Source: an uncultured Burkholderiales bacterium (GTDB lineage: Bacteria > Pseudomonadota > Gammaproteobacteria > Burkholderiales > Burkholderiaceae_C). From it: a DNA stretch of 64,000 nt. The notes beneath the pieces are model-generated. The model saw only the letters and a list, made by a program, of their open reading frames with translations. It made no database searches and was not told the DNA's origin. Positions 13,482-30,431 of this stretch are shown here, in pieces. Position numbers and translations under genes: made by a program. Numbering within the stretch: the stretch's first letter is position 1; every line of letters begins with the position of its first letter. The stretch spans positions 1 to 64,000 of the forward strand of contig CAITYM010000141.1 in NCBI GenBank assembly GCA_903896615.1, given 5' to 3'.

Positions 13482-13522
13482 TGTTTTCGGGATAACCCCT
13501 ATTTTGAATGGTGTAAGCCAAG

Positions 13523-14404
13523 ATGATTGAAGTTGATGGAGTTAAAAACCCCTTTTTGGTGGCTTTAGGAGAACGAGTGCGTGCGTTAAGAGCCAGAAGG
13601 GGGCTTACTAGGAAGGTTCTAGCAATCAACGCTGAAGTGTCCGAGCGTCACTTGGCAAGCTTAGAGTACGGGGAGGGCAATGCATCCATTCTCGTGTTGC
13701 AGCAAGTAGCGGGCGCATTGCAGTGCTCACTGGCGGAGTTGATTGGGGATGTGACCACTTCGTCCCCTGAGTGGCTGTTGCTTAGGGAGATGTTAGGACA
13801 AAGAACAGAGGAGGATTTGCGGCGTGTGCGGGTGCAGATTGCTCAAATCTTCGGCTCTACTCATGATGATGCTCGAATCAACCGGATTGCCTTAATTGGG
13901 CTGCGCGGAGCTGGTAAAACAACTTTAGGCCAGCAATTAGCGAAGGATTTGGGTTACCCTTTTATTGAGCTTAGTCGGGAAATTGAAAAATTTGCTGGTT
14001 GCAGTATTAGTGAAATCCACAATCTTTACGGGACCCACGCATATCGTCGCTACGAGCGAAGAGCTCTAGAGGAGGCGATACAAATTTACCCTGAAGTTGT
14101 AATCGCAACACCGGGGGGGATAGTGTCCGATTCTGCAACCCTTAATGAGTTGTTATCTCACTGTTACACAGTGTGGCTTAAAGCAAAACCAGAGGAGCAT
14201 TTATCCCGAGTTGTGGCTCAGGGTGACATGCGTCCGATGGCTGGGAGTGCTCAAGCCATAGAGGACCTTAAGTTAATTTTAGAAGGGCGAACTCCCTTTT
14301 ATGCAAAGGCAGATACAACCTTTGATACGAGCGCTCAATCCCTAGAGGAAAGCTATAAGGCTCTGAGTTTTCAGTTTAAAAAGTTACTAAATCTGCTTGT
14401 TTAG
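13523..14404 (+). CDS. boxR: Benzoyl-CoA-responsive regulator BoxR (XRE HTH plus shikimate-kinase-like domain)
   Basis: A two-domain transcription factor of 293 residues. An XRE helix-turn-helix at about 15-75 (LGERVRALRARRGLTRKVLA, then VSERHLASLEYGEGNAS) is joined to a shikimate-kinase-like domain from about 118. Its P-loop is GLRGAGKT at 126-133. In BzdR and BoxR the second domain binds benzoyl-CoA, which releases the repressor from its operators. The family's short linker is present (LLLREMLGQRTEEDLRRVR). The gene lies between the two divergent box runs, with operator-like sites on both sides, so autoregulation is likely. ATG 13523 gives MIEVDGVKNPFLVALGERVR; upstream ribosome binding is weak. 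Confidence 0.93.
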   Translation: MIEVDGVKNPFLVALGERVRALRARRGLTRKVLAINAEVSERHLASLEYGEGNASILVLQQVAGALQCSLAELIGDVTTSSPEWLLLREMLGQRTEEDLRRVRVQIAQIFGSTHDDARINRIALIGLRGAGKTTLGQQLAKDLGYPFIELSREIEKFAGCSISEIHNLYGTHAYRRYERRALEEAIQIYPEVVIATPGGIVSDSATLNELLSHCYTVWLKAKPEEHLSRVVAQGDMRPMAGSAQAIEDLKLILEGRTPFYAKADTTFDTSAQSLEESYKALSFQFKKLLNLLV

Positions 14405-14563: not shown

Positions 14564-16231
14564 ATGAACCAACCCACACTCGTTAATTACCAAATTGAGC
14601 CGGGACAATACAAACACTGGTCGGTTAAATACGAGGGGGAAGTTGCAACCCTTCAACTGAATATTAACGAGGACGGTGGAATTCGACCTGGCTACAAGTT
14701 AAAGCTTAACAGCTACGATCTCGGGGTTGATATTGAGTTATACGACGCTTTAAACCGTATTCGATTCGAACATCCTGAGGTGAAGAGTGTCGTAGTAACG
14801 AGCTTGCGCGATCGCATCTTTTGCTCTGGTGCAAATATCTTTATGCTTGGCTTGTCGACGCATGCTTGGAAAGTGAACTTTTGTAAGTTCACCAACGAAA
14901 CACGTAACGGGATTGAGGACAGTAGCCGCTTTAGTGGTTTGAAATTTGTTGCTGCTGTAAATGGAGCTTGTGCTGGAGGGGGGTATGAGTTAGCCCTTGC
15001 TTGTGATGAGATCGTATTAGTAGATGATAGGTCGTCTGCAGTGTCTTTGCCTGAGGTACCACTTTTGGGTGTATTGCCTGGAACAGGTGGACTGACTCGT
15101 GTTACGGACAAACGCAAAGTCCGTCATGATCATGCTGATCTATTTTGTACCAGTGTTGAAGGTGTAAGGGGTCAACGTGCTGTGGATTGGCGATTGGTGG
15201 ATGAGGTCGCAAAGCCAGCTAAATTTGATGAAGCGGTTCAGATTAGAGTTAAAAATATTGCGGCCAACTCTAAGCGTCCGGGTATTTCCGCTTTGGGTAA
15301 AGGTGTGCAATTAACTCCCTTGAAGAAGAATTTGCAAGCAGACCGACTAACTTACGAATACGTTGACATTAGTATTGACCGTGCTAAACGAACGGCGACC
15401 TTGACTGTGCTGGCCCCTAAGTCAGAGCTCCCAACAACCATTGATAAGATACTCGCATCTGGCGCAAATTGGTATCCATTGCAAATGGCCCGTGAACTAG
15501 ATGATGCAATCTTAAGTCTTCGAACAAACGAACTTGATATAGGGACTTGGCTGTTAAAGACAGCAGGCGACAGCAAACTTGCGCTGCAGAGTGACGCAAT
15601 TTTGGTCGAACACAAGGATCATTGGTTTGTTAATGAAACCATTGGAATATTACGCCGTACGTTGGCGCGTATTGATGTTTCTTCCCGTTCTTTATTTGCG
15701 TTAATAGATGAGGGATCTTGTTTTGTAGGACTATTGGCAGAAATTGCATTTGCAGCCGATCGATCTTACATGCTTGTATTGCCCGACGCGGCTGACAAAG
15801 AGCCACACATTGCGTTAAGTGAGTTAAATTTTGGGTACTTCCCCATGGTCAATCATCAGACTCGCTTGCAACGACGCTTTTACGAAGAGGCTGAGCCGCT
15901 TGAGAAAATACGCTCAGTCGTTGGTCAGTTACTTAATGCTAATCAGGCTTTAACCCTTGGGTTGGTCACAGCTGCGCCAGATGATATTGATTGGGCCGAT
16001 GAAATACGTCTCGCAGTTGAGGAGCGATCAGCAATGTCTCCTGATAGTTTGACTGGACTAGAAGCCAATCTGCGCTTTTGTCAAAAAGAGTCAATGGAGA
16101 CGCGTATTTTTGGTCGATTGTCGGCTTGGCAAAACTGGATTTTTAATCGGCCCAATGCGGTCGGAGAAAAGGGTGCACTTAAGGTCTACGGCAAAGGCGA
16201 GAAGGCTGTATTTGATCTCAACCGTGTTTAA
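14564..16231 (+). CDS. boxC: 2,3-epoxybenzoyl-CoA dihydrolase (ring-opening)
   Basis: BoxC, 555 residues, the usual length. It hydrolyses 2,3-epoxybenzoyl-CoA with two waters, opening the ring and releasing formate, to give 3,4-dehydroadipyl-CoA semialdehyde. It has a long crotonase-like domain: FCSGANIFMLGLSTHAWKVNF around 85-105, then VAAVNGACAGGGYELALACD near 130-150, and LPEVPLLGVLPGTGGLTRV. The C-terminal half is a second degenerate crotonase-like region. The N-terminal YKHWSVKYEGEVATLQLNI resembles known BoxC. GGAG lies about ten bases before the ATG. First gene of the boxCBA operon, 24 bases before boxB. Confidence 0.95.
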   Translation: MNQPTLVNYQIEPGQYKHWSVKYEGEVATLQLNINEDGGIRPGYKLKLNSYDLGVDIELYDALNRIRFEHPEVKSVVVTSLRDRIFCSGANIFMLGLSTHAWKVNFCKFTNETRNGIEDSSRFSGLKFVAAVNGACAGGGYELALACDEIVLVDDRSSAVSLPEVPLLGVLPGTGGLTRVTDKRKVRHDHADLFCTSVEGVRGQRAVDWRLVDEVAKPAKFDEAVQIRVKNIAANSKRPGISALGKGVQLTPLKKNLQADRLTYEYVDISIDRAKRTATLTVLAPKSELPTTIDKILASGANWYPLQMARELDDAILSLRTNELDIGTWLLKTAGDSKLALQSDAILVEHKDHWFVNETIGILRRTLARIDVSSRSLFALIDEGSCFVGLLAEIAFAADRSYMLVLPDAADKEPHIALSELNFGYFPMVNHQTRLQRRFYEEAEPLEKIRSVVGQLLNANQALTLGLVTAAPDDIDWADEIRLAVEERSAMSPDSLTGLEANLRFCQKESMETRIFGRLSAWQNWIFNRPNAVGEKGALKVYGKGEKAVFDLNRV

Positions 16232-16254
16232 AGTTTAATTTCTTAAAGGAGTTT

Positions 16255-17685
16255 ATGATGTCAGCAATTAATTACAGCGACAAAATCCCAAATAACGTTA
16301 ATTTATCAGAAGACAGAACGCTTCAAAGAGCTTTGGAGCATTGGCAACCGAACTATTTGCAATGGTGGCAAGATATGGGCCCTGATGGTTCACAAAACTT
16401 TGATGTATATCTTCGCACTGCTGTTAGTGTTGACCCCCAGGGATGGGCGCAGTTTGGTCATGTAAAGATGCCTGATTATCGTTGGGGTATCTTTTTAAAT
16501 GCAGCAGAGCAAGACCGAAAAATTCATTTTGGTGATCATATTGGTGAGGCAGCATGGCAAGATGTGCCTGGCGAACACCGCGCAAATCTGCGCCGAATCA
16601 TTGTCACTCAAGGTGATACAGAGCCCGCCTCCGTTGAGCAGCAAAGGCATCTTGGTTTAACTGCACCTAGTCAATATGATCTGCGGAACTTGTTCCAAGT
16701 TAACGTAGAGGAGGGTCGTCATCTATGGGCAATGGTTTATTTATTACATAAGTACTTTGGTCGTGACGGAAGAGAAGAGGCTGAAGCGTTACTAGAGCGC
16801 AATAGTGGTAATGCTGATAATCCCCGCATATTGGAAGCCTTCAATGAAAAAACGCCTGATTGGTTAAGCTTTTTCATGTTTACATATTTTACCGATCGAG
16901 ACGGTAAATTCCAACTATGTGCTTTAGCTGAAAGTGCCTTTGATCCATTGGCACGCACTACTAAATTCATGTTGACCGAAGAAGCGCATCATATGTTTGT
17001 TGGCGAATCAGGGGTTGGACGAGTTATTCAGAGAACTGTTAACGCTATGAATCAACTTAAAACTGATGACGTGGGAAAGTTGCGTGCTGAGGGTGTAATT
17101 GATTTACCAACCATTCAGCGTTATATTAATTTTCACTTTAGCGTGACTATTGATTTGTTTGGTGCTGATCAATCCTCTAATGCTGCTACCTTCTACAGCT
17201 CTGGGCTTAAGGGACGCTACGAAGAAGGAAAACGCGTAGATGACCACATCTTAAAAGGAAATACATATAAAGTACTTGAGGTACATAACGGTCAATTGCT
17301 TGAAAAAGAAGTGCCGATGTTAAACGCTCTCAATGAGGTGCTTCGAGATGATTACATTACTGACTCTAAGGGTGGTGTTGATCGTTGGAACAGAATTATT
17401 GAGAAAGCAGGTATCCCTTTTAAACTAACTGTTCCTCATAAAGCCTTTCACCGTAACATCGGAACATTGGCTGGTGTTAAGGTCAGCCCAGATGGAAGAG
17501 TTGTTAACGAGCAAGAATGGAACCAAAAAGTAGAGGAGTGGTTACCAAGCGATCAAGACCGTGCCTATGTTGGTAGCCTGATGGGGCGTGTAACTGAAAC
17601 CGGTAAATTTGCTAATTGGATTGCACCGCCAGTTATGGGTATCAACCGTCAGCCCGTGGACTTTGAATATGTCCGTTTCAATTGA
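16255..17685 (+). CDS. boxB: Benzoyl-CoA 2,3-epoxidase, oxygenase subunit
   Basis: BoxB, 476 residues, a carboxylate-bridged diiron epoxidase that adds one oxygen across C2-C3 of benzoyl-CoA, with electrons from BoxA. Allowing for a three-residue offset, the iron ligands known for BoxB fall on E123, E153, H156, D214, E243 and H246; all six are present (EEGRH at 152-156, EEAHH at 242-246). No key residue is missing. AAAGGAG lies a few bases before the ATG; a second ATG follows at 16258. It sits between boxC and boxA, whose frames nearly abut. Confidence 0.96.
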   Translation: MMSAINYSDKIPNNVNLSEDRTLQRALEHWQPNYLQWWQDMGPDGSQNFDVYLRTAVSVDPQGWAQFGHVKMPDYRWGIFLNAAEQDRKIHFGDHIGEAAWQDVPGEHRANLRRIIVTQGDTEPASVEQQRHLGLTAPSQYDLRNLFQVNVEEGRHLWAMVYLLHKYFGRDGREEAEALLERNSGNADNPRILEAFNEKTPDWLSFFMFTYFTDRDGKFQLCALAESAFDPLARTTKFMLTEEAHHMFVGESGVGRVIQRTVNAMNQLKTDDVGKLRAEGVIDLPTIQRYINFHFSVTIDLFGADQSSNAATFYSSGLKGRYEEGKRVDDHILKGNTYKVLEVHNGQLLEKEVPMLNALNEVLRDDYITDSKGGVDRWNRIIEKAGIPFKLTVPHKAFHRNIGTLAGVKVSPDGRVVNEQEWNQKVEEWLPSDQDRAYVGSLMGRVTETGKFANWIAPPVMGINRQPVDFEYVRFN

Positions 17686-17706
17686 TTGATTAAAGCATTA
17701 GCCGCC

Positions 17707-18987
17707 ATGAACGCTCCTACCGAACTTATTCAACAGCATTTGATTGATCCCGAAATTTGTATTCGGTGCAATACCTGCGAAGCAACTTGTCCGGTAGGTG
17801 CAATAACCCATGACAGCCGCAATTACGTAGTCATTGCGGACAAATGTAATTTGTGTATGGCATGCGTACCCCCATGCCCGACTGGATCTATTGATAATTG
17901 GCGTACAAGGCCTAAGGCATCTGTTTTCTCAATAGAGGAGCAGTTATTATGGGATGAATTGCCAGCGGCTTTGTCTGATAGCGAATTGCAAACGTTGGGT
18001 GCTGGCAATTCAATTACCAATAGCCAACAAAGTCAAACCAAAACTCAATCAAATGCTGTGGATGCATTTGGATCACAAGATGTGGCCTTCAACTCTGCTA
18101 CGTACGGGTCCAGCTTACCCCCCTGGTCTGCTGCCCATGCCTACACGAACCTGTATGGCCCCAAAGCACCCATCACTGCAACTATTGTTGGAAATGTTCA
18201 AGTCAATGATGCGGGCACCGCGAATGAAACGCATCATATAGTTCTCGATTTTGGAGCTATGCCCTTTCCAGTGTTAGAGGGGCAGTCTATTGGAGTTATC
18301 CCGCCAGGTGTTGACGAGCAAGGCAAATCACATTTCGCTCGGCAATACTCAATTGCGAGTCCTCGAAACGGCGAACGAGCGGGCTATAACAATTTATCGC
18401 TGACTGTTAAACGAGTTACCGAGGATCATGAAGGTAAAGCAGTTAAGGGTGTTGCATCCAATTACTTGTGCAATTTGAAGGCAGGTGATAAAGTGCAGGT
18501 AATTGGGCCTTTTGGAAGTAGTTTTCTAATGCCTAATCATCCTAAGTCAAATATAGTCATGATTTGTACGGGTACAGGAAGTGCTCCTATGAGAGCTATG
18601 ACAGAGTGGAGACGTAGATTGCGTCAGAGTGGTAAATTTGAAGGAGGCAAATTACTTTTATTCTTTGGGGCAAGAACTCCAAAGGAATTGCCTTATTTCG
18701 GCCCATTACAAAAACTACCTAAAGATTTTATTGATATCAATTTTGCATTCTCGCGTGATAATTCTCAACCCAAAAAATATGTTCAAGACTTAGTTCGTGA
18801 ACGCAGCACTGATTTGGTTGCGCTCCTTAAAGATGCTAATACTTACATTTATGTATGTGGACTAAAAAGTATGGAGGAGGGTGTATTACTTGCCCTGCGC
18901 GATGTAATTAATAATGCCAATTTAAATTGGGAGAGTCTAACGAAATTGCTCAAACAAGAAGGTCGACTGCATTTGGAGACTTACTGA
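17707..18987 (+). CDS. boxA: Benzoyl-CoA epoxidase reductase subunit
   Basis: BoxA, about 426 residues. It transfers electrons from NADPH to BoxB. Two [4Fe-4S] ferredoxin motifs lie at the N-terminus: [14 protein letters not shown] and [14 protein letters not shown] (about residues 15-65). A linker of low complexity is followed by a ferredoxin-NADP reductase module with [13 protein letters not shown] for FAD and [10 protein letters not shown] and [11 protein letters not shown] for NADPH. I chose ATG 17707 because [21 protein letters not shown] resembles known BoxA N-termini. A TTG at 17686, directly after the boxB stop, would add seven residues. The last base overlaps the start of the next gene. 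Confidence 0.93.
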
Positions 18988-19875: not shown

Positions 19876-21282
19876 TTAAGTCTTCGATTTCTCTTTGTCT
19901 TTGATTTTTCGGTTACGAGCATCCCAATTCCGCTCAAGATTATTAATGAGAGCTTCGCTATAGTGACAATATGCTTGCTCTCTTGTATAGACGGCCATGT
20001 ATTTTCTGAAATTGTCTAAAGGTTCTTGATCAATTCGAAAAGATTTTCTATTTCCCGAAGCACTCACAACTCCGGAGGCCGTGATAGATTCTATTGTCTT
20101 TGCAATCGTTTCATCAATTTCGTTTGGCCCAACGACGTAATCGCAAATCATTCTGCCCTCTGGGCTATCGCAGTCTATCCTTTTCTCCATCATGATCGCT
20201 TGGCGTGCAATTCGGTCACCCACAAACCTGGGTAAGCGCATATTTGCGACGCCTGGGATGATGCCCTCTTTACGCGCGGGTAGGGTTAGGTAGGCGTCAT
20301 TTGCGGCTATATTGATATCAGTCACTAGTAGGTATTGACACCCTCCGCCAATTGCAAACTTATCCACTGCCGCGATCCAAAGCTTTTCTGTTGTACGACC
20401 AAGAATTTCACTAGGTGAGTAATGAGGACTTGCAACGCCGCGATATATTTTGTTAACAATACCCATGTCTCGTTCGATGTACCAAAGGTATGGGATTTTG
20501 CCGTTATATAGTCGAGTCAAGTTAATACCACTACAAAATACCCGACTTCCAGTGTATTTGCCTTCCTCTACCAAATCGCCTCGCATAACGGCAATACTAC
20601 TATTTGGATCTAGGACGGCTAAATCTGCGGCTATCTCAGTATTGTCAAGCGTGAAATCATCCTCCGCATTTAAATACTTTCCGTTTTTAAAATATAAATA
20701 GCAAGTTTTATCGCGTCTTTGTAAATTAACTCCCTCTAGCTCAAGATGACCGGTTCGTTCAAACTGTTCCTTGAACTCTTGGGTACGGGGATTTGGCAAT
20801 AATAATGTATGACACAGGTGAAGTCCGCATTCCTGATTAGCGAGTACATGGCTTAGGAAAATGCCCTGATTGATTTCGTGTCCCTCTTTCTGGCTCTGAA
20901 GTAGATCATTTTCTTTTGAAATAATCTCTTTACTGACTGTTAAACCAGGAACCAATTCGTTGGCAGCGAAAAGTAGTTCTTCTAATCTAATGAATTTTTG
21001 AAGGTTGTGGGTAATTTTTTTGTAAACAGTTTGTACATGTAGGTGTAAAAAGTCATCCCGTCTTGCCCTTGAGATCTCTAAGATGAATAGGGCAGCCTTG
21101 TGTTCTTCGGTTGTTCTTTTAAATTTTGGAGGTAACTTTTCTAATAGTTGATTCGCAGATTGCCAGAACTTGATACAACTATCCGCGTCCTTCTCATAAT
21201 TTCCAGACAGAGGTATCAATTTCTTATTGAGCTCATTTACCAAGGTCTGATCTAGTCCTAAGGATTCAAGTGGAGATTTCAT
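19876..21282 (-). CDS. DpgC-like cofactor-independent arylacetyl-CoA dioxygenase
   Basis: A crotonase-fold protein of 468 residues with a long helical N-terminal domain (about 1-180), the architecture of DpgC, the (3,5-dihydroxyphenyl)acetyl-CoA 1,2-dioxygenase of vancomycin-type pathways. DpgC uses O2 with no metal or cofactor to give arylglyoxylate and free CoA. DpgC-like stretches: LNAEDD 204-209, RVFCSGINL 247-255, MGIVNKIYRGV 273-283, AAVDKFAIGGGCQ 304-316, LPARKEGIIPG 334-344. The Glu of LNAED, Arg of KIYRG and Gln of GGGCQ, which I recall as active-site positions in DpgC, are kept. It is last in the leftward gene set, 67 bases after an acyl-CoA ligase. None of the usual glycopeptide genes (dpgA, dpgB, dpgD) is present, so a catabolic role is inferred. 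An ordinary hydratase is less likely given the N-terminal domain. Confidence 0.85.
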   Translation of the reverse strand: MKSPLESLGLDQTLVNELNKKLIPLSGNYEKDADSCIKFWQSANQLLEKLPPKFKRTTEEHKAALFILEISRARRDDFLHLHVQTVYKKITHNLQKFIRLEELLFAANELVPGLTVSKEIISKENDLLQSQKEGHEINQGIFLSHVLANQECGLHLCHTLLLPNPRTQEFKEQFERTGHLELEGVNLQRRDKTCYLYFKNGKYLNAEDDFTLDNTEIAADLAVLDPNSSIAVMRGDLVEEGKYTGSRVFCSGINLTRLYNGKIPYLWYIERDMGIVNKIYRGVASPHYSPSEILGRTTEKLWIAAVDKFAIGGGCQYLLVTDINIAANDAYLTLPARKEGIIPGVANMRLPRFVGDRIARQAIMMEKRIDCDSPEGRMICDYVVGPNEIDETIAKTIESITASGVVSASGNRKSFRIDQEPLDNFRKYMAVYTREQAYCHYSEALINNLERNWDARNRKIKDKEKSKT

Positions 21283-21348
21283 GAAAATATTTTTAAAAGT
21301 AGAAAATGAAAATTACAAAAAGTAAGCGTATTCAAAGCAAATTTGTAT

Positions 21349-23013
21349 CTAAGGATTAAGCTGAAATTCATTAATGACTATCTCGCGCATTTTGAATTTT
21401 TGAACTTTGCCAGATGCTGTGCTTGGGTAGTCATCTACGAAACGTATGTACTGGGGAATTTTGTAGGAAGCAATATTTCCTTTGCAGCGTAAACGAAGGC
21501 TTTCCTCATCAAGAGTGTGGCCTGGCCTCAATTTGATCCACGCGGCGAGTTGCTCACCATATAGCGAGTCAGGGACACCAAACACCTGTGCATCTGCAAT
21601 TTCTGGTAGCTGATGTAAAAATTCTTCTATCTCCCTGGGATAAATATTCTCCCCTGCGCGAATGACCATATCCTTAATTCGCCCAACTATACAAATGCAA
21701 CCATCCTCTCGCATTTGAGCTAAATCACCAGAGTGCATCCACCCCTCTTCATCTATTGCTTCTTTTGTCGCTTCTGGATTTTTCCAATATCCAAGCATGA
21801 CGGAATAACCCCTTACGCAAAGCTCCCCTGGCTTACCCAAAGCTACTGTTGTTCCGTCCAAGGGATCTATTATTTTTATTTCAATATGGGGGTGAACAAT
21901 GCCAACTGTATTAGACCGTTGCTCCATTGTCTGTGTTGGTATACATTGCAATGACATGGGCGATGTCTCAGTCATTCCGTAGCTAGAGCAAAGTCCGACG
22001 ATATGCATTTTTTCTATAGCTGCTTTAAAAACCTCTGAAGGGCAGGGAGCAGCGCCCATTAAGCCAGTTCTTAGAGATTTCATTTTATTACTATCGAAAC
22101 TTGGGTGATTCAGGATTGCAATGTACATCATAGGCACGCCGTAAAAAACCGTACATTGCTCGAATTCGATGGCTTTGATACTCTGCTCAACATCAAAACT
22201 CTCAGTTGGGAAGACGACGGATGAGCCGTGAGCAAAAGCCGCAATCACGCCTACAACGCTGCCAAAACAGTGGAACATGGGAACCGGCAAACAAATAATA
22301 TCTGCAGGCGTAAATCCAAATCGAATTCCTATTTGAATTGCGTTATTGACCATGTTGTATTGAGAAAGCGTGGCCCCTTTGGGTTGCCCCGTAGTTCCTG
22401 ATGTGTACTGAATACTTGCAGCACTTTTTGCATCAATTGATTGCGCAAGTTCATCAAGGTATTTATCATTGGCTTGGGTTGGATAATTTAGAAATTCATT
22501 CCAACTTAATAAATTTGGAGGATGAAAGCTGGTCTTTTGAATTAAATCAAAATCAATAATCTGCTCTAAACAAGGTTGCCGTTTTTGTACGCTAATTGCA
22601 AAACTCAAGCAATCATAAGACCGGAATTTGGGAGTTAAAAAAAGTACCTTGCAGCCTGAATGATTTATCGTATATTCAAGTTCACTTTCTTTGTATGCGG
22701 GATTAATATGAACCAAGATTGCCCCGATTCTTGCAACGGCAAATTGCATTACTATCCACTCAGTCCGGTTTGTGCTCCAGATTCCAACTCTATCACCGCT
22801 TTTGATACCCAATCCAAGAAGGGATTGACTGGCTTTTATCACTAAAGCGTGTAGCTCAATAAAATTTAGCTTATGGTTTTGTAGGACACTGACAACTGCA
22901 GTATTTGAACCAAATTTCTGTTTTGCATTATCTAATAACTGCCCCATTGTTAGTTTTACTAAAGCGCAAGTATCATCCCCTTTCACATAAGAGAGCTTAG
23001 TGATTGCTTTCAT
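21349..23013 (-). CDS. Acyl-CoA ligase (AMP-forming), probable arylacetate/aryl acid ligase
   Basis: Adenylate-forming ligase of 554 residues. P-loop IQYTSGTTGQPKGATLS near 200, adenylate motif SSYGMTETSPMS, hinge GRIKDMVIRAGENIYPREIE, and the C-terminal lysine in TASGKVQKFKMREI. The overall form resembles FadD/medium-chain-type ligases such as those used for cyclohexane carboxylate or aryl acids. It would make the CoA thioester required by the DpgC-like dioxygenase encoded immediately downstream. Substrate choice (phenylacetate, hydroxyphenylacetate, fatty acid) cannot be read from the sequence. It follows the thioesterase gene after 84 bases. Confidence 0.85.
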   Translation of the reverse strand: MKAITKLSYVKGDDTCALVKLTMGQLLDNAKQKFGSNTAVVSVLQNHKLNFIELHALVIKASQSLLGLGIKSGDRVGIWSTNRTEWIVMQFAVARIGAILVHINPAYKESELEYTINHSGCKVLFLTPKFRSYDCLSFAISVQKRQPCLEQIIDFDLIQKTSFHPPNLLSWNEFLNYPTQANDKYLDELAQSIDAKSAASIQYTSGTTGQPKGATLSQYNMVNNAIQIGIRFGFTPADIICLPVPMFHCFGSVVGVIAAFAHGSSVVFPTESFDVEQSIKAIEFEQCTVFYGVPMMYIAILNHPSFDSNKMKSLRTGLMGAAPCPSEVFKAAIEKMHIVGLCSSYGMTETSPMSLQCIPTQTMEQRSNTVGIVHPHIEIKIIDPLDGTTVALGKPGELCVRGYSVMLGYWKNPEATKEAIDEEGWMHSGDLAQMREDGCICIVGRIKDMVIRAGENIYPREIEEFLHQLPEIADAQVFGVPDSLYGEQLAAWIKLRPGHTLDEESLRLRCKGNIASYKIPQYIRFVDDYPSTASGKVQKFKMREIVINEFQLNP

Positions 23014-23097
23014 CTGACGTTTCTCTAAAAGTTATATAGAAGCTTGATGTATACAAAAAGACTTTAAAAGCGCTCATACTCTGAAGTACTAAAGTCT

Positions 23098-23517
23098 TTA
23101 CTGACAAAGATCCTTGATGTCCTTAGGTACCGGAACGATTTTTATTTTCTTTGGATCCTCAGGATGTTTAATGCAAAATGCTCTTGTCTCTAATCCAATG
23201 CACAACACCTCTGAACCTCTTTTTACTATATGCTCTTGTATAAATATTTTTTCACGCCACTCTTTAACACAAGTATGAATCTGAATCTGTTCTCCGTAAG
23301 TAGCAGATATTAAAAATTTCGTATTAATTTCAAGCAGAGGGGTTCCTATAATTCCATTAATTTTTGTTAATTCACGCCAAATTGGAACCCCGTTCTTTAC
23401 GAAAAAGTTTAGAGACGACGAATCCATCCATTTTGAATAATTAGGAAAAAAAACAATACCAGCAGGGTCACAGTCCCCAAAATTTATATCAACGTTATAA
23501 ACGATTGTGTGAGCCAT
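23098..23517 (-). CDS. 4-hydroxybenzoyl-CoA thioesterase-like hotdog protein
   Basis: Hotdog-fold thioesterase of 139 residues. The N-terminal FGDCDPAGIVFFPNYSKWMD is the hallmark of the Pseudomonas-type 4-hydroxybenzoyl-CoA thioesterase; the catalytic Asp falls at D17, the same number as in that enzyme. The rest follows family length and pattern. It hydrolyses aroyl-CoA to the free acid and CoA. Next to a 2-oxoacid oxidoreductase and a DpgC-like enzyme it could release a hydroxybenzoate from hydroxybenzoyl-CoA; DpgC chemistry itself needs no separate thioesterase. It follows the TRAP permease gene closely (27 bases), so it is in the same operon. Confidence 0.87.
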   Translation of the reverse strand: MAHTIVYNVDINFGDCDPAGIVFFPNYSKWMDSSSLNFFVKNGVPIWRELTKINGIIGTPLLEINTKFLISATYGEQIQIHTCVKEWREKIFIQEHIVKRGSEVLCIGLETRAFCIKHPEDPKKIKIVPVPKDIKDLCQ

Positions 23518-23544
23518 AATTTCTTTAATTTGGTCAATAATTCA

Positions 23545-24849
23545 CTACATCTTGCTCGGCAACCATAAGGCAATCGCCGGAAACGCTATAAGTATTACTA
23601 ATCTACAAATGTCTGTAAGAATGAAAGGAATTACTCCTCTAAAAATTGTTAAAAAACTAACATCTTTTACTACGCTTTTTATAACAAAAACATTCATTCC
23701 AACTGGAGGGTGAATGAGTCCTAATTCAACTGTCATTACAATGATTACACCAAACCAAATCGGATCAAATCCAAGTTGTAATATAACTGGATAAATAATT
23801 GGGACGGTTAATATAATCATTGCCATTGAATCCATCAAGCATCCTAGGATTAAATACATTAGCATGATTAAAGCCAATACACCGTATGAACCTAGTCCTA
23901 AATTCGTTAATATAAGCGTGACTTTTTGAGGCACCTGGGTGATTGTTAAAAAGTAACCAAATAATAGTGCTCCAATTAAGACTGTGAAAACAGCCGCTGC
24001 GGTACGAGTTGCTGAAAGTAAAGCTTCCTTTATGGATTCTAAATTTAACTTACCCCTTACCACTCCTAATAAAAATGCACCTGTTGCACCAACACCTCCA
24101 GCTTCAGTTGGCGTGAAAAATCCACCGTATAAACCTCCGATAACAAATATAAACAATACTATTGGAGCCCAAATGGCCTTGATTCCATCCCTACGCTGAG
24201 CCCAACTTTGATCCTCACCCTTCGGTAGCCAAGATGGCTTAACTTTAACAATAATAAATATGGTGACCACATACATTAAGATTGCAAAAATACCAGGAAT
24301 AACCCCGGCCATAAAAAGTTTTCCAATATCTTGTTGCGTTAAAATTGCATACACAGCCAGTACAGTCGAAGGAGGAAGCATTGCACCCAGTGTTCCACCA
24401 GCTGCTATGACGCCTGTTGCAAATGATTGTGGATAACCGTAACGTCTCATCTCAGGATAAGCTACAGAGGAAAAAGTTGCGGCAGTAGCAACACTTGAAC
24501 CGCAAATAGCAGCAAATCCACCGCATGCAATAATGGTTGCTACGCCCAAGCCACCTCTTAAATGACCAATAAATGCATTAGCGGCACGAAAAAGTTCTTT
24601 GCTTACACCAGAGACAGACACAAAGGCCCCCATTAGCATAAACATGGGGATTACTCCAAAGGTGTAGTCCGTTACCGTTCGCATTGAAGTTTGACCGATT
24701 AGTTTTAGGGCTGCGTGGGGACCTGCCATATAACTGTACCCACACATACCTACCAATCCCATTGCCATACCCACGGGCACTCTAAGAATCATTAATAGGA
24801 AAAGACAAGCAAATCCTATGATGGCAATCCAGTCTGGTGAGAGTTCCAT
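23545..24849 (-). CDS. TRAP transporter large permease (DctM type)
   Basis: A very hydrophobic protein of 434 residues with about 12 membrane segments: the large, ion-coupled subunit of a TRAP transporter. Family motifs include LRVPVGMAMGLVG near residue 22, GSSVATAATFSSVAYPEM and GVIAAGGTLGAMLPPSTVLAVY near 150. It imports an organic acid with the DctQ and DctP homologues encoded just upstream in the same operon. The gap to dctQ is 17 bases. Confidence 0.92.
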   Translation of the reverse strand: MELSPDWIAIIGFACLFLLMILRVPVGMAMGLVGMCGYSYMAGPHAALKLIGQTSMRTVTDYTFGVIPMFMLMGAFVSVSGVSKELFRAANAFIGHLRGGLGVATIIACGGFAAICGSSVATAATFSSVAYPEMRRYGYPQSFATGVIAAGGTLGAMLPPSTVLAVYAILTQQDIGKLFMAGVIPGIFAILMYVVTIFIIVKVKPSWLPKGEDQSWAQRRDGIKAIWAPIVLFIFVIGGLYGGFFTPTEAGGVGATGAFLLGVVRGKLNLESIKEALLSATRTAAAVFTVLIGALLFGYFLTITQVPQKVTLILTNLGLGSYGVLALIMLMYLILGCLMDSMAMIILTVPIIYPVILQLGFDPIWFGVIIVMTVELGLIHPPVGMNVFVIKSVVKDVSFLTIFRGVIPFILTDICRLVILIAFPAIALWLPSKM

Positions 24850-24866
24850 ATTGAAATTAGTATGTA

Positions 24867-25367
24867 TCAGTGATCATTATTCTGATCGTTATTGCGAATA
24901 AGTCTGTATGTTCTTATCGCTATTAACAAAACAGCAGAAATATCTCCACACCATGCTACGGCAAAGAATGGCCAAGTAGGTAAGTTAAGGTCGTATGTTA
25001 AAACGTGATCATCATAGGTGCCTTTTACTTTGTCAAATAGCATGAACGTTTGAACGCTCACTACAAGCAAAAGTACCAGAGTTGCAAATATATCAATTAA
25101 TCTTTGAATCTTCGGTTTGCTGATGCTCCATAGTAAATCAACAGTTATGTGTGTGCCGCGATAACTAGTCGCGGCAATCCCCCAAAATATCAAAATACCT
25201 AAAAACATACGACCAAAGTCATAGCTATCAGGAATTGAGGTGTTGAAAAACTTTCTCAAAAACACAGACAAGAAGATATTGACTGCCACTAGACCTACAA
25301 AAATAGCTGCAGCCCATTCAATCAAGTCAATGATTTGGTCAAAAGGATTTTTTTTAAACTTAAACAA
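24867..25367 (-). CDS. TRAP transporter small permease (DctQ type)
   Basis: A 166-residue membrane protein with four hydrophobic segments: the small TRAP subunit. Seen: IEWAAAIFVGLVAVNIFLSVFLRKFF and DFGRMFLGILIFWGIAATSYRGTHI, the latter with the family's RGxHI pattern. No ATG precedes the conserved part, so I take the TTG at 25367; there is no clear ribosome binding site. It lies between dctP and dctM. Confidence 0.88.
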   Translation of the reverse strand: MFKFKKNPFDQIIDLIEWAAAIFVGLVAVNIFLSVFLRKFFNTSIPDSYDFGRMFLGILIFWGIAATSYRGTHITVDLLWSISKPKIQRLIDIFATLVLLLVVSVQTFMLFDKVKGTYDDHVLTYDLNLPTWPFFAVAWCGDISAVLLIAIRTYRLIRNNDQNNDH

Positions 25368-25394
25368 GTTAATTGCGATCTGAACAAGTGTCGG

Positions 25395-26444
25395 TTATTG
25401 AAGTAACGATTTGTACTTTGTCAAAGTTTGACGCAGACTGCTCATTAGGGCAGTGGGATCCTCCCCACGTTTTTTTACTTCATCAGCCCATTGCTTTTCT
25501 AGGGGTTGAGTAGCTTTTTTCCAAGTTGTAAGTTGCTCGGGTGTTAGTTTATAAACCTCTCTGCCAGGATCTGCCGAAAGTTTGTTGTGCCCACTAATTT
25601 CAAAGTCAGCCCATGCGGATCCTACTTTTTCTGCCCATTCGCTTGTGCAGTGACTATCAACTACTTTTTTCTGTGCAGGCGACATAGATTCATACTTATC
25701 TTTATTCATAGCCCAAATGAACGGAGTGACGTACAAAGGGGTATCCATGTGGTATTTAACCACCTTGTCAATGCCAAATAGGCTTAATGATCCCCATGGG
25801 AAAGTAATTGCTTCCGCCACACCTCGCTCAAGCATGTCTCGTGATTCTGGCGCTGAGGCTTGTACGTTGGTGCCTCCCAATAGAGTGATCATCTGGCCGA
25901 TGGTCGCAGTTGCAGGTCGTACTTTCATTCCCTGTATATCAGTTGGTAAAAGTATCTTTTTACGTGAATGAAAGGTACCAGGGTCATGAGCAAAAGCGAA
26001 GCAAAAGTGAATGTCTTTCATCTCCTTTGCCGCATATGGTCTGTACCAAGCATCCATAGCTGCTGAGCCAGCTTTTGCGTTGCTAATTAAGAACGGTAAG
26101 GAGAGGGCAGAGAAGATTGGAAATCTACCTGGTTGATAGCCAGGATTTACATAAGAAAAGTCAGCGATTCCATCCTTTGCCATATCGTAATGGTCAAATG
26201 CTTTACCTAGTTGTTCTGAGGGAAATAATGTAGAAGTCAGTGTCCCACCAGATGCGGCTTTAAGATCGTCAGCCCATGCTTGTAGCGCTGGATTCAATGC
26301 GTGCTGAGCAGGCACCCAACTCGAGAGTTTTAGAGCAACAGGCTTATCGGTTGTTTGAGCTTGTACCTGGCCTACAGAAATAATCCCAAGTGCAATAGAA
26401 CTAACAATTGTGCAAAGTCTCTTATTGATCCTGTTTTTTTTCAT
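25395..26444 (-). CDS. TRAP transporter substrate-binding protein (DctP type)
   Basis: Periplasmic TRAP binding protein, 349 residues, with a signal peptide (positively charged start, then SSIALGIISVGQVQA, cleavage near QAQ). DctP features: LKLSSWVPAQHALNPALQAWADDL, the substrate-clamping Arg region KVRPATATIGQMITLLGGTNVQ and GVAEAITFPWGSLSLFG. TRAP proteins of this group often bind aromatic or other carboxylates; the ligand is not predictable. ATG 26444 is chosen over the GTG at 26447; GAAGG lies about ten bases upstream. It follows iorB by about 170 bases, so it may have its own promoter. Confidence 0.9.
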   Translation of the reverse strand: MKKNRINKRLCTIVSSIALGIISVGQVQAQTTDKPVALKLSSWVPAQHALNPALQAWADDLKAASGGTLTSTLFPSEQLGKAFDHYDMAKDGIADFSYVNPGYQPGRFPIFSALSLPFLISNAKAGSAAMDAWYRPYAAKEMKDIHFCFAFAHDPGTFHSRKKILLPTDIQGMKVRPATATIGQMITLLGGTNVQASAPESRDMLERGVAEAITFPWGSLSLFGIDKVVKYHMDTPLYVTPFIWAMNKDKYESMSPAQKKVVDSHCTSEWAEKVGSAWADFEISGHNKLSADPGREVYKLTPEQLTTWKKATQPLEKQWADEVKKRGEDPTALMSSLRQTLTKYKSLLQ

Positions 26445-26524
26445 CACTGATAGCCTTCATCTTGGATAGTTAAAAAATTTATAAAACCCATTCTCCAAAA
26501 AGGACTTTGGGTCGCTTAGTTTTG

Positions 26525-26549
26525 AATTATCTATTTAATTTGGATAATT
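26525..26549. repeat. Inverted repeat upstream of the TRAP operon
   Basis: Arms AATTATC and GATAATT are separated by 11 bases in the iorB-dctP gap. The position about 80-105 bases before the dctP start suits an operator, but the region is so AT-rich that chance is possible. Confidence 0.3.
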
Positions 26550-26613
26550 ACATATATAGGTTAATACTAGGTTTTTATACAAATTTGCAGTTACTTTAAA
26601 ACACCTACGCCCC

Positions 26614-28260
26614 TTAACTTGGCGCGACACTTGTCGGACGTTTCATCCACCTTATTGGCTGCTCCTTGAGTGGACGGGTAGGTGCTCCGATTCCTCTCAT
26701 AAAAGCATCCAAGGGTTTGCCCGACTCATCTTTTAAAGCGTTTTGTCGGGCTTGTTTGACTATTTCTGCTTTTGTCAGGGTGGGGCTAACTATTTGTCCA
26801 TTTGTAAGTGAATCTAGGATGTAATTCAAATTTTCATGAGCCCGAAGATTGGTGCTTCCATATCCTTTAATTAATCGACCGCAAGCGGCAACTTCTTGAC
26901 CCAGAGCGATATCCTCCATGGTGGATTGAATTACGCAGTTTAGCCAGGAATTAATTTCCAATTGTTCAAAGTGATATCTCCTTCCCAGTTTTCTTAACCA
27001 TTTGAGATTTGATAAAAGTTTAAGAATTAATGTGCCAGAGATGCTTGTTGTAATTAATTTTATCTTCAACTCTAGTGGAGACCGTCCATTTTTAATTCGC
27101 TTTTCTTCCCATTTCAATATTAAATCCCCAATGCGTTTTGGTAGCAGTCCAGCTAATTCAGGTACTCCAGGCTTGAAGTGATCATATACTCGGATTATTT
27201 CATCACTCTTTGCGTTTACATCTTTTTTGATTTGTTCAAAACGATTTTGCTTGATCTTAAGTTCTGCAACTCTGACAATGTCATCAAAAGCCATCCAAAG
27301 CGCAGTCCACCGCGCTGATTCATTCGTAATATTCCAATGATTGAGTGGATTATTCGATAACGTATTGATAGTCGATTGTGTGGCTTTCTTCTCAGCCGCA
27401 TATACACTCTTGATTCTTTTTAAATAAAGTTCAGCGTAATCCTTGTTTTGGTACTCTATCAATCGAGAGTATCCTAAATTAAGGATTTCATGGGTTTCAA
27501 CTGGAAAATCACTCAAGTCTGGTTGTATATGATTTAATTTGAAATGCTCATTGTTTTTTGATGCTGATTGAGCATCTATTGATTGAATCAATTTATCTAC
27601 AAATTGAGTGTTTTTGGTTTGCTTTTCAACTGCATCCCATCCTTGGCTGAAGCCCTTAAGACTTGCAATTTGCGCGGCGGATAAGACTTCATTTGCTCCT
27701 TTGATCGCACTCTCATAGTCTTCCCTTTTGAAGGGCAAAAGCCTACTTGCCCCTATACACCCTAACATGACTGAACTAATGATGGTGCCTGATTGTTTGG
27801 CTAGAAGTCCCATATCGACAATGTGATGCGATTTAGAGAATTGTTGAATTAATTCAATCAATGAATGCTCAGGTACTCGACTATCTCCTAGTCCCATTCT
27901 TTCCAAAGTTGTTAGTGTTCGATTAGACGCACTTATCACGCAGGTTTGTTCGGGATTTGACATCCCATTACTGATTTGACGCCCTGTCTCAAGAAGTTCG
28001 GATGAAATTAAAAGATCGATTTGACCTGGTACTGGACTGAGGCCAAATATCGGATTGATTCCTACAACTTGAGTGGAGATAGGTTCCATCAACTCTATGT
28101 AATAAGTCGTTGCACCAGTCCTTTGAGCTACTCCCGGTATTGAGGTTGCCTGGACATGTGCTTTCGCAATTTTGGCGGCGTTGACAAGCCAGTCAGTAAG
28201 GACGCCACCGCCTTCTCCGCCGAGGGCGCAAATTAGTATAGTAAAAGGTTTTCTCATCAT
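26614..28260 (-). CDS. Indolepyruvate-type 2-oxoacid oxidoreductase, beta subunit (IorB, long form)
   Basis: A 548-residue subunit. The first ~200 residues are a pyruvate-ferredoxin-oxidoreductase gamma-like domain (ALGGEGGGVLTDWLVNAAK, then VVGINPIFGLSPVPGQIDLL). A long helical C-terminal extension of the type seen in aerobic proteobacterial IorB proteins follows. With IorA it decarboxylates an aryl-2-oxoacid and makes the acyl-CoA. In this context the substrate could be an arylpyruvate, giving arylacetyl-CoA, or an arylglyoxylate, giving aroyl-CoA. The ATG overlaps the iorA stop (TAATG), so the two are coupled. The gene encodes no separate ferredoxin. Confidence 0.87.
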   Translation of the reverse strand: MMRKPFTILICALGGEGGGVLTDWLVNAAKIAKAHVQATSIPGVAQRTGATTYYIELMEPISTQVVGINPIFGLSPVPGQIDLLISSELLETGRQISNGMSNPEQTCVISASNRTLTTLERMGLGDSRVPEHSLIELIQQFSKSHHIVDMGLLAKQSGTIISSVMLGCIGASRLLPFKREDYESAIKGANEVLSAAQIASLKGFSQGWDAVEKQTKNTQFVDKLIQSIDAQSASKNNEHFKLNHIQPDLSDFPVETHEILNLGYSRLIEYQNKDYAELYLKRIKSVYAAEKKATQSTINTLSNNPLNHWNITNESARWTALWMAFDDIVRVAELKIKQNRFEQIKKDVNAKSDEIIRVYDHFKPGVPELAGLLPKRIGDLILKWEEKRIKNGRSPLELKIKLITTSISGTLILKLLSNLKWLRKLGRRYHFEQLEINSWLNCVIQSTMEDIALGQEVAACGRLIKGYGSTNLRAHENLNYILDSLTNGQIVSPTLTKAEIVKQARQNALKDESGKPLDAFMRGIGAPTRPLKEQPIRWMKRPTSVAPS

Positions 28261-30431
28261 TAAGCTGTTTGGAGTAAGCGAATAAGAGGGGTGCGCAAAA
28301 AGTTTAGTAGTTTTTCTGCAAGTGTTGGGTTTTGAATGATTTCAGTACGGAAAAAAGAAGGGCAAAGAGTGGCTGCGTGAGCATTCTCTCCACAAAGTCC
28401 GCACCCTACACATCCTTCTATGACGCTTGCAACTGGGTCAAGTTTTAGGGGATCAGGATTTTCTTTCAAGGTGAGCGTAGGACAGCCAGAAAGCCTGATA
28501 CAAGCGTGATCGCCATTACAAACATCAGCGTCGACACCGTACTTGACTTTCATTACGCGTTTGCCAGCTTTAAGCATTGAGGTCAACCAAGGTTTAATTC
28601 TTCGCTGGCGCTCTAACTGGCATTCTCCTTCTGCTATGATGACTTTTAGGCCGTTATAACTACTTGTAAATGCCTCTATCAATGTTTTGCGAACACGATC
28701 GACCTCGTAAGTATTCACTGATTTAAGCCATTGCACGCCTAAACCTTGGAGTGTATTTTCAATTGATTGGTTTGTGTGTACAAGACTTTGCAGTTTATCG
28801 GTAGCATCATTTTTTTCAAAGATACTAGGCGTTGACAGAATGTCTTGTGTACCTGTTGCTGATGTATAGCCGTTTTTGAATATCAGGAGTACTGCATCGT
28901 CTCCATTAAAAAGAGCACTTTGTACGCCTGTAAGTAAGCCGTTGTGCCAAAAGCCCCCGTCTCCCATAATAGAGAGAACTCTTCTTTGCATGTTCGGTGA
29001 GACTCCTGCGCGACTGGCTAAACTCATACCGTACCCTAAAATCGTATGTCCTGTAGAGAACGGCGGAAATGTGCCAAATGAATGGCAACCAATATCTGCA
29101 GAAATATGAATATCTCCAACTGTCCTTTGAGAAAGCTTTATTGCCGAGAAAACAGGCCTCTCGGGACAGCCGATACAAAAACCTGGAGGACGGGGTGGCA
29201 GGGCTACAGAGTCTTCAATTAGTTTAGAAGCAATTAATTTCTTTCTATCATCAAAGTTTTTAATTAATTGACTAGCTCCTACTAAAGCGTCGTGGCATTC
29301 GTTTACCAGGTACTTATTAACAAAAGTAATTAAACCTCGAATCATCACATCTGCGTTGTATTCGCCTGCATTTTGAAAAATATCTTTGCCGTGAATGGGC
29401 GTGTTGATATTTAATCGACGAAGTGCTAAGCAAATTTCTTGTTCGATATATTCTGGTTGCCCTTCTTCGATTATTATTACTGCATCTTTATTTGAGCAAA
29501 ATTTTTCAATTTGATTTGGAACTAGTGGATAAACTACATTTAATACGTAGATTGGAATTTTTGTATTTCCATATACATCTGCTAGATCAAACTGATTAAG
29601 TACACGGATTAAAGTGTTATAAAGTCCGCCTTGTACAATAATTCCAAAATTGTGTAATTCCCCATCAAATAGTTCGTTTAAATTATGCTCAGTAATGTAC
29701 TTTTGAGCAGCAGGTATTCTGCTTTGGTATTTAAGCTTTTCATGTATAAATGTAACGGGAGGATGCGCGAGTTTTTCGTAGTTAAAACTCGCTGGCTCAT
29801 TTAATAAATGATTCGATGAAATTGTGGGGGCAATATTATTTTTAGCTTCAAACATTCCCTTCACATGGCATGCTCTAATTCTGAGCTCCATCATAGCGGG
29901 CATGTTTGAACATTCTGATAATGCAAAAGCATGCTCAACCATATTTACCATTTGAGCAAGATTTGGTCTTGGATCAACCAATATCATGCTTGATTTCATT
30001 GCGTAGGCATGAGTCCTCTCCTGAATTACAGAAGCACCTTCTCCGTAGTCCTCCCCGACTACTATTAAAACACCGCCAACAACACCAGCAGAGGATAGAT
30101 TGCTAAGTGCATCCGCAGCTACGTTAGTACCAACGATTGACTTCCAGGTTACAGCTCCACGCATAGGGTAGTGAATGGAGGCACCAAGCATTGCTGCTGC
30201 TGAGGCCTCGTTGGAGCACGCTTCAACATGAACACCAAGTGTGGATAGATACTCCTTGGCTTGCACCATCACATCCAATAAATGCGAAACGGGGGCGCCT
30301 TGATAACCACCAATGTAAGAAACACCGGACTGAAGTAAGGCCTTGGTAATGGCAAGGATCCCTTCGCCGTGAAATTCTTCACCTTTACCAAGTTGAAGTA
30401 ACTTTATTTCTTCGTGAAATGACACTTCCAT
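28260..30431 (-). CDS. Indolepyruvate-type 2-oxoacid oxidoreductase, alpha subunit (IorA)
   Basis: IorA homologue of 723 residues (archaeal IorA is near 620-650). Order: PP-like domain (GGYQGAPVSHLLDV, SNEASAAAMLGASIHYP), transketolase C-like domain, the TPP-binding domain with CIGCPERPVF and GDGGFWHNGLLTG...N, then a C-terminal ferredoxin domain with CNGDHACIRLSGCP and CVGCGLCGENAHAATLCPSF for two [4Fe-4S] clusters. It is the catalytic subunit that decarboxylates the aryl-2-oxoacid. I chose ATG 30431 (MEVSFHEE); a TTG at 30440 would add three residues. First gene of the leftward set; its promoter must lie in the 470-base gap to the flavin reductase gene. Confidence 0.9.
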   Translation of the reverse strand: MEVSFHEEIKLLQLGKGEEFHGEGILAITKALLQSGVSYIGGYQGAPVSHLLDVMVQAKEYLSTLGVHVEACSNEASAAAMLGASIHYPMRGAVTWKSIVGTNVAADALSNLSSAGVVGGVLIVVGEDYGEGASVIQERTHAYAMKSSMILVDPRPNLAQMVNMVEHAFALSECSNMPAMMELRIRACHVKGMFEAKNNIAPTISSNHLLNEPASFNYEKLAHPPVTFIHEKLKYQSRIPAAQKYITEHNLNELFDGELHNFGIIVQGGLYNTLIRVLNQFDLADVYGNTKIPIYVLNVVYPLVPNQIEKFCSNKDAVIIIEEGQPEYIEQEICLALRRLNINTPIHGKDIFQNAGEYNADVMIRGLITFVNKYLVNECHDALVGASQLIKNFDDRKKLIASKLIEDSVALPPRPPGFCIGCPERPVFSAIKLSQRTVGDIHISADIGCHSFGTFPPFSTGHTILGYGMSLASRAGVSPNMQRRVLSIMGDGGFWHNGLLTGVQSALFNGDDAVLLIFKNGYTSATGTQDILSTPSIFEKNDATDKLQSLVHTNQSIENTLQGLGVQWLKSVNTYEVDRVRKTLIEAFTSSYNGLKVIIAEGECQLERQRRIKPWLTSMLKAGKRVMKVKYGVDADVCNGDHACIRLSGCPTLTLKENPDPLKLDPVASVIEGCVGCGLCGENAHAATLCPSFFRTEIIQNPTLAEKLLNFLRTPLIRLLQTA

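Follow-up and report, generated by a model that had tools for sequence, protein, structure and literature searches.

Described routes and the window locus

Phenylacetate occupies a central position in the catabolism of aromatic compounds, and we describe here an eight-gene cluster, carried on a 64,000-nucleotide stretch of DNA from an uncultured Burkholderiales bacterium (contig CAITYM010000141.1; this whole stretch is hereafter called the window), that appears to encode a new, DpgC-dependent substitute for the usual arylacetate route. The aerobic, coenzyme A (CoA)-dependent phenylacetate route named in the accessible portion of PMC9765128 is the PaaABCE epoxide route, and our open-access searches yielded no other. 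In the anaerobic Pad pathway of Thauera, Azoarcus and Aromatoleum, as given in excerpts of PMC9765128 and PMC2755013, phenylacetyl-CoA is converted to phenylglyoxylate and then to benzoyl-CoA. DpgC, from 3,5-dihydroxyphenylglycine (DPG) biosynthesis, turns an arylacetyl-CoA into an arylglyoxylate without metal or cofactor, a reaction described for the 3,5-dihydroxy compound in the available part of PMC3849588. Finally, the pristinamycin L-phenylglycine operon, pglA-E, includes a step from phenylacetyl-CoA to phenylglyoxylate; the accessible passages of PMC7089894 name PglA a dioxygenase in one place and a phenylglycine dehydrogenase in another.

The window cluster resembles each of these systems in part. 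It would share a starting CoA activation with the PaaABCE/PaaK route, whereas oxidation of the side chain would replace epoxidation of the ring. The intermediates proposed for it are those of the Pad pathway, which employs a membrane-bound molybdenum enzyme and phenylglyoxylate:acceptor oxidoreductase and no O2; in contrast, the window route would employ a cofactor-free dioxygenase and an aerobic box sink. It would be an O2-using mirror of the Pad pathway, in which IorAB would stand where the Pad pathway has phenylglyoxylate:acceptor oxidoreductase. No PadBCD molybdenum enzyme is listed among the 42 (of 58) window open reading frames (ORFs) of at least 120 amino acids that were scanned for protein families, and the genome was not searched for Pad genes. 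In the passages of PMC7089894 open to us, pglA-E groups three functions in a single operon: formation of phenylglyoxylate from phenylacetyl-CoA, a decarboxylating 2-oxoacid enzyme and a thioesterase. The window cluster would do likewise, but in pglA-E the oxidation comes only after the 2-oxoacid enzyme has acted, and the final step is that of an aminotransferase. We came across no description of such a catabolic pathway in those portions of the open-licence literature that we could consult, a scope outside of which most subscription papers lie.

We conclude, with a probability of roughly 0.7, that the cluster specifies an aerobic alpha-oxidation pathway for arylacetates, in which a ligase, a DpgC-family oxygenase and IorAB act in turn and the product passes to the box pathway or to a thioesterase and PobA. 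A tripartite ATP-independent periplasmic (TRAP) importer would bring in the arylacetate, which the AMP-forming ligase, judging from its family, would convert to arylacetyl-CoA. Homology, a conserved active site and comparative genomics predict that the DpgC-family protein abstracts the acidic alpha proton and introduces O2 with no need of a cofactor, releasing arylglyoxylate and CoA. IorAB would then yield aroyl-CoA and CO2 by an oxidative decarboxylation that saves the thioester bond, which is the weakest step of the scheme. Benzoyl-CoA could enter the neighboring box pathway directly, and 4-hydroxybenzoyl-CoA would be opened by the 4HBT thioesterase and passed to PobA. The retained thioester would spare a separate, ATP-costly activation of benzoate, and the module as a whole would do the job of the phenylacetyl-CoA epoxidase PaaABCE. 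The substrate may be phenylacetate, 4-hydroxyphenylacetate or both.

The DpgC-like protein and its active site

Judged by alignment, the DpgC-like protein is a full-length homologue of DpgC: its residues 42-449 match residues 24-429 of PDB 5kag (E=1.1e-87), with the DpgC N-terminal part included. The DpgC equivalog model NF042432 covers residues 43-451 of the 468 amino acids. Because its score lies below the cut-off (Table 1), we regard the protein as a relative of DpgC and not as the vancomycin/DPG enzyme itself, and in contrast to the enzyme of antibiotic synthesis it is proposed to serve degradation. Among the window ORFs scanned, no dpgA, transaminase or nonribosomal peptide synthetase match is listed near the gene, and the DpgB and DpgD models match only window crotonases, far under their cut-offs.

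We take E189, I235, R254, G296, Q299, A319 and I324 of DpgC to be the residues that line the oxyanion hole, contact the ring and shape the O2 pocket. All of these are kept in the PDB alignment, as E207, I253, R271, G313, Q316, A336 and I341, and they are near-invariant across the 84 aligned rows counted (four further rows with other labels were left out). DpgC V425 is replaced by Leu in the window protein and in 83 of the 84 rows, the remaining row having a gap.

These data also bear on whether the protein might be an ordinary enoyl-CoA hydratase or isomerase, the cluster then being a side branch of beta-oxidation. Pfam does assign it to ECH_1, and generic hydratase models match it weakly. Against this stand the N-terminal DpgC homology, a lead of about 250 bits over the best ordinary hydratase in PDB (E=8.8e-11), and the presence of Gln316 and Ala336 in 84 of 84 rows at positions where, we presume, ordinary hydratases carry their two catalytic glutamates. 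We consider a hydratase or isomerase identity highly improbable on this evidence and have rejected it.

Gene order and recurrence of the cluster

The genes run on the minus strand, beginning at 30431 and ending at 19876, in the order iorA, iorB, dctP, dctQ, dctM, a 4HBT thioesterase, the AMP-forming CoA ligase and the DpgC-like gene. An ORF check found all eight as open frames within 19876-30440, and open frames and family matches together bear out the initial annotation, which had placed this gene set on one strand between 19876 and 30431. Its end coordinate of 30431 proved to be the ATG at which the closest IorA homologue begins (MEVSFHEE...), the mechanical ORF starting at a TTG at 30440. 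Since the intergenic gaps are small (a 1-base overlap of iorA and iorB, followed by gaps of 166, 27, 17, 27, 84 and 66 bases), the eight genes likely constitute a single operon. The DpgC-like gene ends 88 bases short of a crotonase gene that converges on it and closes the box cluster. The presence of that cluster next door, also claimed in the initial annotation, is upheld by models for boxA, boxB, boxC, boxD, boxR and benzoate-CoA ligase, all of which score above their NCBIfam cut-offs. Family calls throughout were made with Pfam, NCBIfam and PRK/TIGR models and their cut-offs, and the host genome comprises 3.18 Mb in 173 contigs and is 99.86% complete.

The entire eight-gene module is found again in four public loci (L014, L015, L016 and L089), and portions of it occur in others. 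Because of this recurrence, the association of the eight genes exceeds chance.

Neighbors of DpgC relatives

A pattern-based scan of 84,980 species genomes yielded 282 DpgC relatives, the best 80 of which were kept (L014-L093). These best 80 come mostly from metagenome-assembled genomes of Burkholderiales, Hyphomicrobiales, Rhodospirillales, Reyranella and similar organisms, with Bauldia litoralis (L046) and Hyphomicrobium sp. (L058) among the named strains, and the nearest relatives of the window protein are in assemblies of this type titled uncultured Burkholderiales. In a class-wide draw of 369 genomes, a DpgC-like gene was present at E<=1e-30 in one, the host itself.

Neighbors were counted with a simple, purpose-written gene caller in 80 rows (79 public loci and the window; the DpgC gene of L072 was not called). 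A CoA ligase is the immediate neighbor of DpgC in 42 of 79 public loci (43 of 80 with the window), belonging in 32 cases to the PaaK group and in 10 public loci (11 with the window) to a PRK12583-like group. Since both groups occur as immediate neighbors, two different ligase groups fill the same place beside DpgC. Four PaaK-group ligases were compared with the equivalog cut-off of 646.3, three of which exceed it (684.9, 661.9 and 663.1) and one of which falls short (610.8). PaaK also adjoins DpgC in six of eight further DpgC-positive genomes of the host's order. Genes for 4HBT thioesterases are present in the DpgC flanks of L014, L015, L016, L037, L045 and L089, and FlK-type thioesterase genes in those of ten loci (one, L021, confirmed by Pfam).

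One clade of DpgC relatives, of Reyranella type (L026, L030-L032, L034, L038-L040, L051 and L053), has a conserved neighborhood that lacks both ligase and indolepyruvate oxidoreductase (IOR). All nine genomes examined of its ten carry BoxB and lack PaaA.

No relative was found in the viral contigs searched, and a plasmid collection held 15 records with DpgC relatives, 14 actinobacterial and one from Tistrella; four of these were opened, and annotated neighbors were available in L012 only. In this Streptomyces record, a DpgC-family gene occupies the pglA position and is followed by pdhA, a beta subunit gene, a hydrolase, MbtH and an aminotransferase. By analogy, L012 would be a phenylglycine operon, and it may thereby offer a precedent for a DpgC-family protein acting at phenylacetyl-CoA. 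Among ten ORFs scanned in the Tistrella record, genes for a fatty-acyl-AMP ligase and an acyl-CoA dehydrogenase-like protein precede the DpgC-like gene, whose product sits on a very long branch in the DpgC tree.

Company of BoxB and absence of PaaA

For a census of the host's order, 200 genomes were drawn evenly, host included, and a DpgC-like gene was recorded at E<=1e-60. BoxB was present in 43 genomes, PaaA in 31 and a DpgC-like gene in nine, which are spread over four families. All nine DpgC-positive genomes carry BoxB, compared to 34 of the 191 others (Fisher 4.8e-7, kinship ignored). Within the BoxB-positive genomes, PaaA is found in 0 of 9 with DpgC and in 23 of 34 without it (Fisher 3.0e-4, kinship again ignored), and 11 BoxB-positive genomes carry neither PaaA nor DpgC. 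In a control sample of 200 genomes from the phylum, host included, BoxB occurs in 13 and PaaA in 28, and 10 of the 13 BoxB-positive genomes have PaaA.

The same trend is evident in a set of 51 DpgC-positive genomes, comprising the host and 50 from the 80 loci (11 of them hand-picked). BoxB is present in 42 at E<=1e-40 (38 above the cut-off), whereas 50 genomes lack PaaA at this threshold, including that of the host (G000). Thus, the DpgC-like gene accompanies box and almost never PaaA. This is the pattern expected if the gene opens another way from phenylacetyl-CoA to benzoyl-CoA, and, judging from the order sample, DpgC seems to take over the role of PaaABCE ahead of box.

The 2-oxoacid oxidoreductase and the order of steps

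Enzymes of the IorAB type act on aryl-2-oxoacids in general. The window pair has the composition of a 2-oxoacid:acceptor oxidoreductase, with a TPP (thiamin pyrophosphate) domain, a POR domain and two subunits, and it shares with indolepyruvate:ferredoxin oxidoreductase a TPP/iron-sulfur (Fe-S) subunit and a gamma-type subunit with DUF6537. It differs from the latter in the score of IorA, which is far under the IOR cut-off (Table 1), in the first Fe-S motif and in the proposed substrate, arylglyoxylate. In an alignment of IorA with six relatives, Cys641/647/653 and Cys677/680/683 are kept; the first motif of this C-terminal Fe-S region has three cysteines only (C641, C647 and C653), unlike that of the relative in L050.

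An IOR-type enzyme is encoded in the examined flank of 16 of 80 public loci, a count that is a lower bound because many contigs are short. The rough chance expectation, assuming two IOR copies per 4 Mb, is about one in 80. Window-type IorAB accounts for 13 of these loci. In L050 the IOR pair is of another kind, archaeal-like by our assessment, and a position one gene away from DpgC is taken by a Kor-type 2-oxoacid:acceptor oxidoreductase, and L084 and L085 have a fused IOR (1386.4 bits on PRK13030 for L084). The IOR-bearing loci occupy three places in the DpgC tree, with window-type and fused enzymes sharing one of them, and the DpgC-adjacent IorA copies do not form a single clade in the IorA tree (both are quick trees with no clade test). 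Separate-subunit IorA was found in 48 of 59 DpgC-positive genomes, in a table read by eye and with two of the 48 probably of another type.

IorAB may act after DpgC, before it, or at both points. The main rival to our scheme reverses the order, such that IorAB forms arylacetyl-CoA out of arylpyruvate supplied by phenylalanine or tyrosine, the DpgC-like protein forms arylglyoxylate, another enzyme finishes the route, and the ligase merely salvages free arylacetate. Aromatoleum IorAB is described as converting phenylpyruvate to phenylacetyl-CoA in the available part of PMC9765128, and the steps of the phenylglycine operon follow the same sequence, there with an enzyme like pyruvate dehydrogenase, as stated in the accessible text of PMC7089894 and matched by L012. 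Moreover, IorAB also occurs without DpgC, and further candidate 2-oxoacid enzymes are encoded by the host: at 47270-49296 lie two genes like pdhA and pdhB, and contig C20 carries a TPP enzyme similar (571 bits) to the one in the neighborhood of DpgC in L024. We nevertheless judge the reversed order unlikely. A ligase is the commonest immediate neighbor of DpgC whether an IOR is present or not, the company of box and the absence of PaaA call for a step from arylglyoxylate to benzoyl-CoA for which no other enzyme of the operon is as good a candidate as IorAB, and a thioesterase in an IorAB operon fits an aroyl-CoA product better.

In a variant that we hold to be less probable still, IorAB would act on both arylpyruvate and arylglyoxylate, and the operon would serve arylpyruvates derived from amino acids as well as free arylacetates. 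The breadth of the aryl-2-oxoacid class and the occurrence of the same IorAB subtype in varied neighborhoods agree with this variant, whereas the adjacency of the ligase points to free acids. Returning to the scheme in which IorAB follows DpgC, the chain from arylacetate through arylacetyl-CoA and arylglyoxylate to aroyl-CoA had been put forward in the initial annotation, and the comparative tests of neighborhoods and genome profiles lend it support. A failure of these genes to be conserved together was not borne out when co-occurrence was checked: the ligase counts, the IOR counts and the adjacency of box genes to DpgC in three clades all run the other way.

At 6469-9805 of L024, genes for a TPP enzyme (PRK08199, 834.6 bits) and an aldehyde dehydrogenase directly precede the DpgC-like gene, perhaps forming a decarboxylase-plus-dehydrogenase exit from arylglyoxylate.

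Outlets for the aroyl-CoA product

DpgC has box genes beside it in three of its clades and with two ligase groups, represented by the window and L089, by L064 (boxR, boxC, boxB, PaaK, DpgC) and by L076 (boxB, PaaK, DpgC). At two other loci, L054 and L069, DpgC is followed directly by a gene for a PobA homologue and flanked on its opposite side by PaaK and TRAP genes. The L069 protein is confirmed as PobA (643.9 bits, cut-off 538.7), and neither genome has a BoxB match. PobA scores above its cut-off in 34 of the 51 DpgC-positive genomes versus 44 of 200 in the phylum control, and in the host it is encoded on another contig (C73:4730-5899). The window thioesterase aligns with PDB 1bvq over residues 1-138 of 139, with Asp at position 17 in both proteins; we take Asp17 to be a functional residue of 4-hydroxybenzoyl-CoA thioesterase of the Pseudomonas type. 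Because of the PobA pattern and this closest relationship of the thioesterase, the data suggest two outlets, with benzoyl-CoA passing to box and 4-hydroxybenzoyl-CoA passing to the thioesterase and PobA.

A 4HBT-type gene also adjoins iorB in five of 40 other IorAB regions (weakly in L135, and in L161 and L168-L170). The last three are from DpgC-positive genomes of Reyranella type, in which DpgC stands alone.

The BoxB proteins of DpgC-positive genomes are not uniform. Eight of the nine in the order sample (G609, G621, G654, G660, G665, G708, G736 and G746, and not the host) have a lower-scoring BoxB, with 742.7-767.2 versus about 900 bits. G609 carries both types side by side, as does the DpgC-negative G697, and the lower-scoring type possibly represents a second box subfamily.

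Strength and reach of the proposed pathway

Several observations weigh against the pathway as we propose it. With regard to neighborhoods, 37 of 79 public loci lack a ligase as the immediate neighbor, 64 of 80 lack an IOR in the examined flank (many contigs being short), and none of the scored partners is present in 29 of 88 labeled DpgC rows, the whole Reyranella-type clade included. With regard to genomes, nine of the 51 DpgC-positive ones lack BoxB, among them G390 (L035), which is also the sole PaaA-positive member of the set, and across all 200 genomes of the order the deficit of PaaA (0 of 9 versus 31 of 191) does not reach significance by itself (p=0.36). Most exposed is the IorAB step. 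Separate-subunit IorA is missing from 11 of the 59 DpgC-positive genomes and present in 10 of 21 that have BoxB and PaaA and lack DpgC (Fisher 0.005 against 48 of 59), no IOR gene lies near box in the 20 box regions examined from DpgC-positive genomes, and away from DpgC IorAB occurs in varied contexts (40 regions, including L165 and L171, which duplicate the L021 and L048 loci), which weakens its specificity. Because IorAB is not specific to DpgC-positive genomes, its step in the pathway is one that we infer. Finally, if the pathway yielded nothing but benzoyl-CoA, having a thioesterase would be wasteful.

Taken together, we still think it probable that the window exemplifies a widespread, undescribed proteobacterial pathway for the aerobic use of phenylacetate and 4-hydroxyphenylacetate. 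It would consist of a ligase, a DpgC-family dioxygenase and an IOR-type enzyme recruited more than once, would deliver aroyl-CoA to box or to a thioesterase, PobA and protocatechuate, and would replace PaaABCE in genomes bearing box, giving the DpgC family its first catabolic role. If so, the pathway would explain how box-bearing Proteobacteria without PaaA could handle arylacetates, and DpgC dioxygenases would have a role beyond the making of antibiotics. It would also mean that a pathway lies concealed behind labels such as enoyl-CoA hydratase and indolepyruvate oxidoreductase.

Other features of the window

Table 1. Genes of the proposed arylacetate cluster and the adjacent box locus, with positions in the window.
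Feature	Position	Strand	Evidence
DpgC-family cofactor-free dioxygenase (predicted)	19876..21282	-	PDB DpgC 5kag/2np9 E=1.1e-87; NF042432 384.8 bits (below cut-off 530); kept active-site residues
AMP-forming acyl-CoA ligase; proposed arylacetate-CoA ligase	21349..23013	-	PRK12583 674.3 bits (below cut-off 832); Pfam AMP-binding and C domain
4-Hydroxybenzoyl-CoA-type thioesterase; proposed hydroxybenzoyl-CoA outlet	23098..23517	-	PF13279 (4HBT_2); PDB 1bvq E=6.8e-36
DctM, TRAP large permease	23545..24849	-	PF06808; TIGR00786 331.2 bits (above cut-off 268.45)
DctQ, TRAP small permease	24867..25367	-	PF04290
DctP, TRAP solute-binding protein	25395..26447	-	PF03480; TRAP_S1 76.9 bits (above cut-off 50); PDB 7nqg E=1.1e-133
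IorB-like subunit (POR + DUF6537)	26614..28260	-	PRK08312 494.1 bits (above cut-off 348); PF20169, PF01558; 1-base overlap with IorA
IorA-like TPP subunit, aryl-2-oxoacid:acceptor oxidoreductase	28260..30431	-	TIGR03336 253.6 bits (below cut-off 650.9); TPP_enzyme_C, PF02775
boxC, boxB, boxA; proposed benzoyl-CoA sink, convergent neighbor	14564..18987	+	TIGR03222, TIGR03225, TIGR03224 above cut-offs
Benzoate-CoA ligase, boxD, PnbB-like protein (-); boxR (+)	9697..14404	mixed	TIGR02262, PRK11903, PRK08154 above cut-offs

Between boxD and boxR lies a gene of the PnbB (4-hydroxylaminobenzoate lyase) family (12907-13419, minus strand; PF16155). L127, L128 and L131 carry homologues with 53-59% identity within their box clusters, an unexplained link to box.

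Three further groups of genes, all on the plus strand unless noted, lie elsewhere in the window. At 2148-3894 are the large and small subunits of a ring-hydroxylating dioxygenase, AndAc-like with 370.3 bits, far below the cut-off of 750. A second row of CoA-dependent, aromatic-type genes extends from 32637 to 43059 and includes a crotonase, a PRK12582-type ligase, a short-chain dehydrogenase/reductase, a branched-chain-type ABC transporter, an acyl-CoA dehydrogenase-like gene and a regulator. The row at 44240-49296, for which strand is given only for its BKACE gene (45250-46176, plus), also contains a 3-hydroxyacyl-CoA dehydrogenase, a TctC binding protein and the pdhA/pdhB-like E1 genes; the BKACE enzyme scores 541.2 bits against a cut-off of 430 for 3,5-dioxohexanoate:acetyl-CoA acetone transferase.

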